DNA of 36,606 bases, from contig CAMLRX010000039.1 in NCBI GenBank assembly GCA_946482545.1, positions 1 through 36,606 on the forward strand, given 5' to 3'. This stretch comes from an uncultured Flavihumibacter sp. (lineage in GTDB: Bacteria > Bacteroidota > Bacteroidia > Chitinophagales > Chitinophagaceae). Below are positions 5,201-29,963 of this stretch, piece by piece. Position numbers and translations under genes: made by a program. The notes under the pieces were generated by a model. It made no database searches and was not told the origin of the DNA. It saw only the letters and a program-made list of their open reading frames with translations. The first letter of the stretch is position 1, and every line of letters starts with the position of its first letter.

Positions 5201-5231
5201 TTGAGTGGTTGTTGTGCTAAAAATAGCTTTG
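5201..5231 (+). promoter_or_regulatory. Bacteroidota-type promoter for the protoglobin gene
   Basis: TTG at 5201-5203, a 20-base spacer, then TAGCTTTG at 5224-5231, matching the Bacteroidota TAnnTTTG -7 element exactly. Transcription would start near 5237, leaving a leader of about 70 bases before the ATG at 5307. Confidence 0.65.
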
Positions 5232-5267: not shown

Positions 5268-5306
5268 CGGATGATAGCACTTTTTTTTAACAACAAACCA
5301 TATAAC

Positions 5307-5963
5307 ATGAAACCTTCCTTCTTTTTTACGCTTCTGTTGGCCGTTCTTTTTTGTTCAGGCGTTTACGCGCAGGCAACCCAGCCACCGCATGGGTACACTT
5401 ATGGTACCAAAGAGGTGGCGAAATCGCCATTTAGTTTAGAAGAATTAAAGTTGTTGCAGGAGGCTATGCTGTTTGGCGAAGAGGACATAAAATACCTCAG
5501 AATGAGTTATGATATTCTTAAAGATCAAACCAATGATATACTCGATGTCTGGTATGGATTTGTAGGCTCAACTCCGCAACTGGTGTATTTTTTCAGCAAC
5601 AAAAGTACAGGGAAGCCAGACGGCGCATACCTTGCAAAAGTAAGAGAAAGGTTTGCTGCCTGGATCTTACAAACCGCTGAAGCTAAATATGATCAGCAAT
5701 GGTTAGACTATCAGTACGAAATAGGACTGCGTCATTACACTACGAAGAAGAACAAAACGGATAACGCCAATTCTGTTCCTGTTATCAACTTCCGATATAT
5801 TCCTGCACTTACTATTCCCGTTACTACAACGTTAAAGCCGTTTCTGGCGAAGAAAGGTGCCAGTGCCGAAGCCGTAGATAAAATGTTCAGTGCGTGGTTG
5901 AAATCGGTGCTGCTGCAATCAATTTTGTGGGGACAGCCTTACATGAAAAAAGGAGAATACTAA
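5307..5963 (+). CDS. Exported protoglobin (haem sensor/binding globin with signal peptide)
   Basis: Protoglobins are single-domain globins that bind O2, CO and NO. The mature part follows the remembered Methanosarcina acetivorans protoglobin over its whole length: GYTYG, SPFSLEELKLLQEAMLF, ILDVWYGFVGS, YDQQWLDYQYEIGLRH, TTTLKPFLAKKG. Expected haem-pocket residues are present: proximal His143 in IGLRHYTTKK, distal Trp82-Tyr83 and Phe116. Unusually, residues 1-22 form a clear Sec signal peptide (MKPSFFFTLLLAVLFCSGVY, then AQ), placing the globin outside the cytoplasm. The ATG at 5307 begins this signal; an ATG at 5271 would only add 12 polar/aromatic residues. No kinase or cyclase domain is attached (218 residues in all). 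It has its own promoter and an upstream palindrome, and is followed after 21 bases by a small gene. Family call is firm; an NO/O2-related periplasmic role is inference. Confidence 0.92.
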   Translation: MKPSFFFTLLLAVLFCSGVYAQATQPPHGYTYGTKEVAKSPFSLEELKLLQEAMLFGEEDIKYLRMSYDILKDQTNDILDVWYGFVGSTPQLVYFFSNKSTGKPDGAYLAKVRERFAAWILQTAEAKYDQQWLDYQYEIGLRHYTTKKNKTDNANSVPVINFRYIPALTIPVTTTLKPFLAKKGASAEAVDKMFSAWLKSVLLQSILWGQPYMKKGEY

Positions 5964-5984: not shown

Positions 5985-6233
5985 ATGGATAAACGAAATA
6001 CCTTACACAAAGATGAGACCTTTCTCACGGTACTTACAGATTGTAAAAACAGCAACAGCAAAGTTCATCTGTTGTACGAAGAAGATGGTGTGATCCGGGG
6101 AGAAGGATATGTACAGAAGATTGAAGCAGGAACTGACGTGCCTTACCTGGAACTCACAGATGGGAAGCAGATACTTTTAAAAAATATTATAGCCGTGAAT
6201 GGCATGTTTGATCCTTCTTATTCTGAATGCTGA
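5985..6233 (+). CDS. Small protein, possibly Rof/Sm-like barrel
   Basis: An 82-residue acidic, cytoplasmic-looking protein with no signal peptide or membrane segment. The pattern of alternating beta strands (SKVHLLYEEDGVIRGEGYV, then PYLELTDGKQILLKNIIAV) resembles the five-stranded barrel of Rho-binding antiterminator (Rof/YaeO) and related Sm-like proteins, but only in outline, so the function is left open. It starts 21 bases after the protoglobin stop and is followed at once by a strong terminator, so the two genes are probably one transcript. Residue Cys20 and the C-terminal Cys are the only cysteines. It may be an unrelated conserved Bacteroidota small protein. Confidence 0.75.
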   Translation: MDKRNTLHKDETFLTVLTDCKNSNSKVHLLYEEDGVIRGEGYVQKIEAGTDVPYLELTDGKQILLKNIIAVNGMFDPSYSEC

Positions 6234-28964: not shown

Positions 28965-29963
28965 ATGAGTGAGCAGGAGTTGTATGGATCGATCAGGGAA
29001 TTGATTGTTGCGGCAAGAGAAAAGACGCTGCGTGCCGTGAATGTATTGTTGCTTCAAACGTATTGGGAAATCGGGAAGTTGATTGTGGAAGAGGAGCAGA
29101 ATGGGAAAGCAAGAGGAAGATACAGTGACCGAATTCTGAAAAATATTTCCGGTAAACTTGAGAGAGAATTCGGAAGCGGTTACGCCGAGCGAAGCCTTAG
29201 AAATATGAAAGCTTTTCATCAGGCATTTCCAATTCGGTCCGCACTGCGGACCGAATTAAGCTGGACGCATTACCGGTTGATTTCCAGGGTAATAAATCAG
29301 AAAGCACGGAACTTTTATATGGAAGAGTGCGTAGCTGGTGGATGGAGTTCCCGAACATTGGAGCGGAACATCAGCAGTGGCTATTTTGAAAGAATAAAAG
29401 CATTGCCAACCCCCAAAGATGGCATACCGCCATCCGATACCCGCGCCTTCATCAAAGACCCCTATATCTTTGAGTTCCTGGGGTTGTCCGCTGATCAGGT
29501 TCCGGCTGAAAAAGACCTTGAAACCGCGCTGCTTAAACACCTCCATCATTTTTTAATGGAACTCGGAAAAGGTTTCGCTTTTGTAGCAAGACAGCAGCAC
29601 CTTTCTACAGAGACAGGCGACTTCTATGTAGACCTTGTGTTTTATAATTACTACCTGAAGTGTTTCGTGCTGATCGATCTGAAAAAAGGACGTCTCACCC
29701 ACCAGGATATCGGCCAGATGGATATGTATGTACGCATGTACGAAGACCTGAAACGTGCACCAGATGATAATCCAACCATCGGAATCATTCTCTGTACTGA
29801 AAAAGATGAAACTGTGGTGAAGTATTCCGTATTATCCGGTAGTAACCATTTATTCGCAAGCAAATACAGGCTTTACCTGCCGGAAGAAGAAGACCTCAAA
29901 CAACTGATAGCACACGACAGGCTGCGCTTCGAAATGGAAAACATGCAGGAACGTGGCCCCTGA
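28965..29963 (+). CDS. YhcG-type PDDEXK nuclease (DUF1016)
   Basis: A 332-residue protein of the YhcG/DUF1016 family. The N-terminal half (YWEIGKLIVEEEQNGKARGR; SERSLRNMKAFHQAFP-like YAERSLRNMKAFHQ; LSWTHYRLISRV) is the DUF1016 winged-helix-like region. The C-terminal half is a PDDEXK nuclease: GDFYVDLVFYNYYLKCFVLI with Asp223, then Asp238-x-Lys240 in DLKKGRLTH, followed by QMDMYVRMYED. Family members are thought to act on DNA and are often found near restriction or mobile genes, but no such genes are next to this one. It stands alone, divergent from gldA and convergent with the 81-residue gene. A 27-bp perfect palindrome lies within the coding region at codons 89-98. Confidence 0.92.
   Translation: MSEQELYGSIRELIVAAREKTLRAVNVLLLQTYWEIGKLIVEEEQNGKARGRYSDRILKNISGKLEREFGSGYAERSLRNMKAFHQAFPIRSALRTELSWTHYRLISRVINQKARNFYMEECVAGGWSSRTLERNISSGYFERIKALPTPKDGIPPSDTRAFIKDPYIFEFLGLSADQVPAEKDLETALLKHLHHFLMELGKGFAFVARQQHLSTETGDFYVDLVFYNYYLKCFVLIDLKKGRLTHQDIGQMDMYVRMYEDLKRAPDDNPTIGIILCTEKDETVVKYSVLSGSNHLFASKYRLYLPEEEDLKQLIAHDRLRFEMENMQERGP
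29231..29257. repeat. Perfect 27-bp palindrome inside the yhcG-type gene
   Basis: Arms AATTCGGTCCGCA and TGCGGACCGAATT, 13 bp each with a single central base. It is translated in frame as IRSALRTEL between the conserved FP and LSWTHYR blocks of the family, so it occupies a spacer position where the protein can tolerate change. Confidence 0.9.

Follow-up and report, generated by a model that had tools for sequence, protein, structure and literature searches.

We find that an uncultured Flavihumibacter sp. encodes a protoglobin that is preceded by a conserved Sec-type signal peptide and is probably exported from the cytoplasm as a haem protein. The gene lies in a stretch of 36,606 nucleotides, called here the window. 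Protoglobins contain haem b, form homodimers via helices G and H and are usually regarded as intracellular proteins, which is why an export tag on the window protein and its closest relatives matters. In the literature searched, which lay mostly outside subscription journals and is thus no proof of absence, the available portions of the sources (PMC3287990, PMC1457004, PMC3962134, and PMC12154649 included) held no report of an exported protoglobin, and "periplasmic globin" had no match there; possible signal peptides are mentioned for some fungal flavohaemoglobins in the accessible part of PMC3287990. Beyond what a first-pass annotation of the window had described, we observe a large clade of exported-type proteins, an adjacent signal-less protoglobin in some relatives and, near most relatives, a MarR-type regulator with a Cys4 tail.

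A predicted single-domain haem protoglobin

Protoglobin (PF11563) is the only Pfam family in the window protein, matching residues 45 to 217 (E = 1.1e-26; 94.1 bits against a cut-off of 25). The structure 2VEB of the M. acetivorans protoglobin (MaPgb) is matched at E = 1.2e-69, query residues 28 to 218 aligning with chain residues 7 to 195, which bears out the first-pass annotation in its view that the mature part tracks this archaeal protein. In the model, residues 27 to 218 align on 2VEB residues 6 to 195, with the N-terminal extension and the full 3-on-3 globin retained, and the residues left after the proposed cut, 22 to 218, make up a single domain of about 195 residues. No transducer or signalling domain follows the globin, in contrast to HemAT, AfGcHK, and other globin-coupled sensors, which have a transducer domain there. 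The family match, the 2VEB alignment and the haem-pocket residues support the reading of the window protein as a stand-alone, single-domain haem protoglobin.

The features and their positions are collected in Table 1. H143 and the pair W82-Y83, named earlier as proximal and distal residues, do align with MaPgb His120, Trp60, and Tyr61, and the residues at MaPgb positions 60, 61, 93, and 120 (W, Y, F, and H) are invariant among the 25 exported rows sampled. Two positions differ from MaPgb, CysE20 being replaced by Ala and Phe145 by Leu; a further difference is the signal peptide of about 21 residues, MaPgb having none in the available descriptions. The Aeropyrum pernix protoglobin (7UTE, 8EUM, and 8EUN) is more distant, at 47 to 49% identity, and its aligned chains are also without a signal peptide.

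Table 1. Features of the protoglobin gene and its surroundings, in window coordinates
Feature	Position	Strand	Remarks
Promoter-like site TTG-N20-TAGCTTTG	5201..5231	+	upstream of gene; kept in G736
Protoglobin gene	5307..5963	+	218 codons + stop; ORF call, Pfam, 2VEB match
Predicted Sec/SPase I signal peptide, residues 1-21	5307..5369	+	sequence and comparison of 121, 120, and 104 proteins
Mature protoglobin (predicted), residues 22-218	5370..5960	+	base positions computed from residue numbers
W82	5550-5552	+	distal, = MaPgb Trp60
Y83	5553-5555	+	distal, = MaPgb Tyr61
F116	5652-5654	+	= MaPgb Phe93
A124	5676-5678	+	MaPgb CysE20 position
H143	5733-5735	+	proximal, = MaPgb His120
L168	5808-5810	+	MaPgb Phe145 position
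82-aa protein beside globin, function unknown	5985..6233	+	next to or near globin also in L004, L014, and L101

A complete haem site would allow an exported protein to take up haem, but a scavenger or shuttle of haem outside the cytoplasm is highly improbable. In MaPgb, the N-terminal extension and loops bury the haem (accessible text of PMC3680402 and PMC4020757), which is accessed by two tunnels (PMC3680402, likewise in part); the extension is retained here, and no adjoining haem-uptake gene was noted in the loci listed, which are partly annotated.

A signal peptide precedes the globin

Residues 1 to 21 are MKPSFFFTLLLAVLFCSGVYA, followed by Q22. The segment has a Lys at residue 2, a hydrophobic core, and an A at -1 with a Q at +1, and we propose a cut between A21 and Q22. 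Directly after residue 21 comes QATQPPHGYTYG, with which the N-terminal loop of the protoglobin begins, so a full globin would be left behind the presumed cut. No twin arginine occurs in the first 14 residues of any of 121 proteins (the window protein and its nearest relatives), so they lack the mark of a Tat signal. A lipobox with Cys at +1 is absent from the window protein, its C16 being preceded by F, and a lipobox-like pattern is seen in 3 of the 121 (P0032, P0035, and P0097). The window protein ends with the globin and has no T9SS C-terminal sorting domain by NCBIfam at 0.001; the same search matched TIGR04183 in a neighbour of the globin gene.

A longer in-frame ORF begins at 5271, and the start of the relatives corresponds to 5307. 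Between residues 2 and 60, the in-frame ATG, GTG, and TTG codons are TTG 11, within the hydrophobic segment, and GTG 37, TTG 49, TTG 50, and ATG 54, all beyond the conserved GYTYG loop (residues 29 to 33). None thus lies between residue 11 and the globin loop, and a start downstream of the hydrophobic segment, which the first-pass annotation had named among the findings that would overturn its claim, has no such codon to use ahead of that loop.

The nearest genome is G736 (locus L101), a member of the family of L009's genome, a Chitinophagaceae record. Its protein is 92% identical to the window protein, and both share the gene order ftsZ (identified by eye), 443-aa protein, 552-aa protein, globin, 82-aa protein, histidine kinase, and 468-aa protein. 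At a dS of 1.02, dN/dS comes to 0.043 across the gene, with 0.033 in the core and 0.22 in residues 1 to 21 (9 changes only), so the globin gene is under strong purifying selection. The start-codon position reads ATC in G736 and ATG in the window, with the promoter-like boxes and leader conserved; the ATC may be a rare start, a lesion or a sequence error. The upstream TTG-N20-TAGCTTTG corresponds to the Bacteroidota-type promoter consensus, and three sites of this type occur in the window over both strands against 1.63 expected by chance, which makes the promoter-like site weak alone.

The signal peptide is conserved among the nearest relatives

N-termini were scored with a home-made rule for the n-, h-, and c-regions, applied to the part before the GYTYG loop with the globin start placed by alignment. 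Three sets were compared: the window protein plus the best 120 of 2105 matches (exported set); the best 120 of 4083 matches to the signal-less tandem copy of L001 (7385-7960; paralogue set); and 104 new proteins among the best 120 of 5653 matches to the sister lineage L016 (L016 set). The rule is passed by 116/121, 0/120, and 5/104, respectively, and an [AGS]Q site is found in 119/121 of the exported set. All five records that fail there have short N-termini (P0057, P0062, P0098, P0106, and P0112), and four of them retain the [AGS]Q pair. Four other window proteins with AQ-type N-termini, used as positive controls, all pass. Shuffled N-terminal extensions pass in 1105/6000 cases for the exported, 9/150 for the paralogue and 53/750 for the L016 set, so the rule is lenient for one sequence, and what counts is how the sets differ. 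These counts supersede cruder ones (116/121 and 3/120; then 108/121, 0/120, and 5/104), in which the globin start was misplaced and globin helices were scored as hydrophobic.

A charged n-region, a hydrophobic h-region and small residues before the cut are thus shared by the window protein and 115 of its 120 nearest relatives, a near-universal trait among these 121 that none of the 120 nearest paralogues has. As to export, the conserved signal peptide and the single clade of exported-type rows stand, and export itself is what we infer from them; for the window protein it is well supported by the comparison. That the segment is an uncut membrane anchor, or that the true start lies elsewhere, is quite improbable: the leniency of the rule and the G736 gene without ATG would favour such a reading, but the split between the exported and paralogue sets, the [AGS]Q site and the distribution of in-frame start codons speak against it.

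Five protoglobins of the L016 set pass the rule (P0270, P0281, P0312, P0319, and P0335), P0270 and P0281 being lipoprotein-like. In all but P0312, an internal Met stands ahead of the globin, and two starts are possible. In L107 (G201), a signal-less-type protoglobin is extended upstream by MRRTAIIITMGLTTLPVLAQ and contains an internal Met; the extension may be an independent signal peptide or a chance frame.

Exported-type proteins form one clade

A midpoint-rooted tree was built from 99 globin cores with the signal peptide removed. The 42 exported-type rows form one clade with support of 100/100, including the rule misses P0057, P0062, and P0112 and the G736 row. Its sister is L016 (Nitrosomonadaceae), which has no signal peptide, with support of 99/85, followed by Nitrospira and an alphaproteobacterial row; given the midpoint root, the direction of change is not given by this tree. 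Local tandem duplication as the origin of the globin pair is rejected, as the tandem copies sit across a 99/99 split. A second tree, of 78 rows from part of the three sets, has five label changes, or two without P0270, P0281, P0319, and P0335, and its weak deep branches make repeated gain of the signal peptide likely only.

The signal-less Bacteroidota protoglobins belong to the same family and differ in several marks. At position 101, A is found in 119/121 of the exported set, C in 120/120 paralogues and A in 99/104 of the L016 set; position 145 is L in 121/121, F in 120/120, and L in 89/104. CysE20 and Phe145 are thus kept in the paralogues, and since A101 and L145 are common in the L016 set, both changes predate export or do not depend on it. 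The globin core is without cysteine in 120/121 of the exported set and has at least one in 120/120 paralogues. The idea that cysteine was lost in adapting to the periplasm is weakened, because 75/104 proteins of the set near the signal-less sister L016 are also Cys-free. What does track the exported set is a more basic core: its median pI is 8.82, whereas the paralogues are acidic, at 6.47, and the L016 set, with its five signal-bearing proteins, is at 6.22.

The uniform split at position 145, a distal position, could suggest an exported haem enzyme of the peroxidase or oxygenase type, like the secreted rubber oxygenase Lcp. Lcp belongs to a family other than protoglobin, DUF2236. Neither Lcp nor DUF2236 was matched by Pfam at 0.001 or appears among the structure matches listed for the window protein, where absence is no exclusion. 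As described in the available text of PMC6311187, Lcp is a globin-fold haem-b protein that leaves the cytoplasm and acts as an extracellular enzyme, but it exits via Tat with haem in place, whereas the window signal is of the Sec type with no RR. Lcp also has extra N- and C-terminal domains. With the remaining distal residues as in MaPgb, L145 also present in the mostly signal-less L016 set and no substrate gene linked in the loci seen, an enzyme of this kind is rather improbable.

Neighbourhood of exported-type genes

Nineteen exported-form loci were compared (the window, L001 to L015, L034, L101, and L103), some of them close kin, with L009 and L011 nearly the same. A signal-less protoglobin lies directly upstream in five (L001 to L004 and L006). 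In 12 loci a MarR-type regulator shares the globin's strand at a distance of up to about 1.1 kb; in 4 (L005, L007, L008, and L012) it is on the opposite strand, no more than 3 kb away; and in 3 (the window, L014, and L101) there is none within 5 kb. A DUF2024 gene is found within 5 kb in 15 of the 19, all except the window, L014, L101, and L103, and in 7 the gene immediately before the globin codes for a small CPVC protein. The window has neither regulator nor signal-less partner within 5 kb and retains only the 82-aa neighbour from among the recurrent ones. This protein has no family match in Pfam or NCBIfam; it may form one family with a 101-aa protein of L001 (10209-10514), the two matching by hhalign at E = 4e-4 and a probability of 35%.

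Among 32 signal-less-only loci, several of them on short contigs, the regulator is on the same strand in 16, on the other strand in 1 and not found in 15. After removal of L011, L102, L104, and L105 as near-duplicates, 31 of 32 regulator sequences carry the C-terminal Cys4 motif; the exception, from L015, is a shorter frame. Cys4-tailed MarR-type regulators also occur near protoglobins in L022 to L028, L030, L031, L107 to L109, L111, L113, L114, L117, and L119, and loci with both genes come from Bacteroidota, Bipolaricaulota, Acidobacteriota, and one Ignavibacteriota record. In L031, a thioredoxin-like N-terminus and the regulator read as a single frame. Near some relatives are genes for nitroreductase, flavodoxin-like, DoxX, dienelactone hydrolase, isochorismatase, and DJ-1/PfpI proteins, which would be in keeping with a stress response; they vary by locus, and none is beside the window globin.

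An alternative to a detoxifier is an exported O2 buffer or carrier that supplies terminal oxidases at low O2 from the periplasm, and the cbb3-type oxidase-like genes downstream of the L031 protoglobin cluster would fit it. The haem pocket is the same as in O2-binding protoglobin, and a similar role has been proposed for Vitreoscilla haemoglobin (available text of PMC3962134). L031, however, carries the signal-less form only, the periplasmic localisation of Vitreoscilla haemoglobin is called a possible artefact in the same text, and MaPgb autoxidises fast (PMC4020757, in the part available), so that we consider this role unlikely.

No association of the exported form with the denitrification genes surveyed

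A denitrification link of the exported form was sought through NirK, qNOR, and NosZ in 66 genomes of self-chosen groups, with counts tallied by eye, and was not found. The groups comprised 18 exported-form genomes, 20 that had only the signal-less form and 28 without a match, the last among the first listed in the genus and family surveys. The sample leaves out G397, G781, G845, G856, G871, G908, and G987, of the Chitinophagaceae family and with only signal-less or distant matches, as well as the other matches of the G002-class survey and the remaining no-match genomes. NirK was over the cut-off in 5/18, 7/20, and 8/28, respectively; NosZ was found in 7/18, 15/20, and 11/28; and the qNOR N-terminal domain was over the cut-off in 2/18, 0/20, and 3/28. 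Between exported-form and no-match genomes (18 versus 28, uncorrected for kinship), Fisher's test gave p = 1.0 for both NosZ and NirK. For NosZ, the signal-less-only genomes differed from those without a match at p = 0.02 and from those with the exported form at p = 0.047, both uncorrected for kinship or number of tests.

A possible periplasmic role

In the reading we prefer, the protoglobin would leave the cytoplasm via the Sec pathway, signal peptidase I would take off about 21 residues, and the mature protein, comprising the N-terminal loop and the whole globin core, would fold in the periplasm. Haem b would be acquired there, a step that we infer because the signal is of the Sec type, and a dimer would form by analogy with MaPgb, with small ligands bound on the buried haem. 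The pocket is the same as that of MaPgb, which argues for the same chemistry in another compartment, and in vitro MaPgb acts on both peroxynitrite, which it isomerises, and nitrite, which it reduces (PMC4020757, in its available portions). The most likely work of the exported protein may then be to intercept NO, peroxynitrite or related reactive nitrogen or oxygen species outside the cytoplasm, complementing the signal-less protoglobin whose gene is its neighbour in some relatives. We put forward detoxification only tentatively. Relatives near a MarR-type regulator with a Cys4 tail count in its favour; the ATC start of G736, the lack of a regulator or partner near the window gene, the lack of association with NirK, qNOR, or NosZ, and the lenient rule count against the preferred reading as a whole.

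More speculative is a wider arrangement in which Bacteroidota keep protoglobins in two compartments. A signal-less protoglobin and a separately evolved exported one would have been brought together as neighbours near a MarR-type regulator, whose Cys4 tail could sense the same oxidants. The exported form, loaded with haem outside the cytoplasm, might shield against gases or reactive nitrogen in the periplasm, or relay them, and export might have had several origins, with lipoproteins in some lineages.

Protoglobin papers, in the portions available, study purified proteins, with the cellular role unknown there. The exported clade is under strong selection and in some genomes stands beside a signal-less sister, which offers hosts for deletion tests of protoglobin role, named Flavobacterium strains among the loci being candidates. 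How a haem-b globin would acquire its cofactor outside the cytoplasm, once exported by Sec, is a further question that the clade poses.

Genome surveys, with exported type taken as at least 73% identity to the window protein, gave rates that are each biased upward, as the centre genomes themselves carry the gene. Matches to the window protein were found in 11/395 genomes of the class of G002, one of exported type (G002 itself), in 12/299 from the genus to which G004, a Flavobacterium panici record, belongs, with 5 of these 12 exported, and in 24/294 of the family of G005, with 4 exported. An alphaproteobacterial 548-aa frame (L033, 6927-8573) has a C-terminal protoglobin behind a stretch that by eye is alpha/beta hydrolase-like, with no NCBIfam match. 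Elsewhere in the window, positions 28965-29963 (+) encode a YhcG-type PDDEXK nuclease (PF06250 and PF17761).
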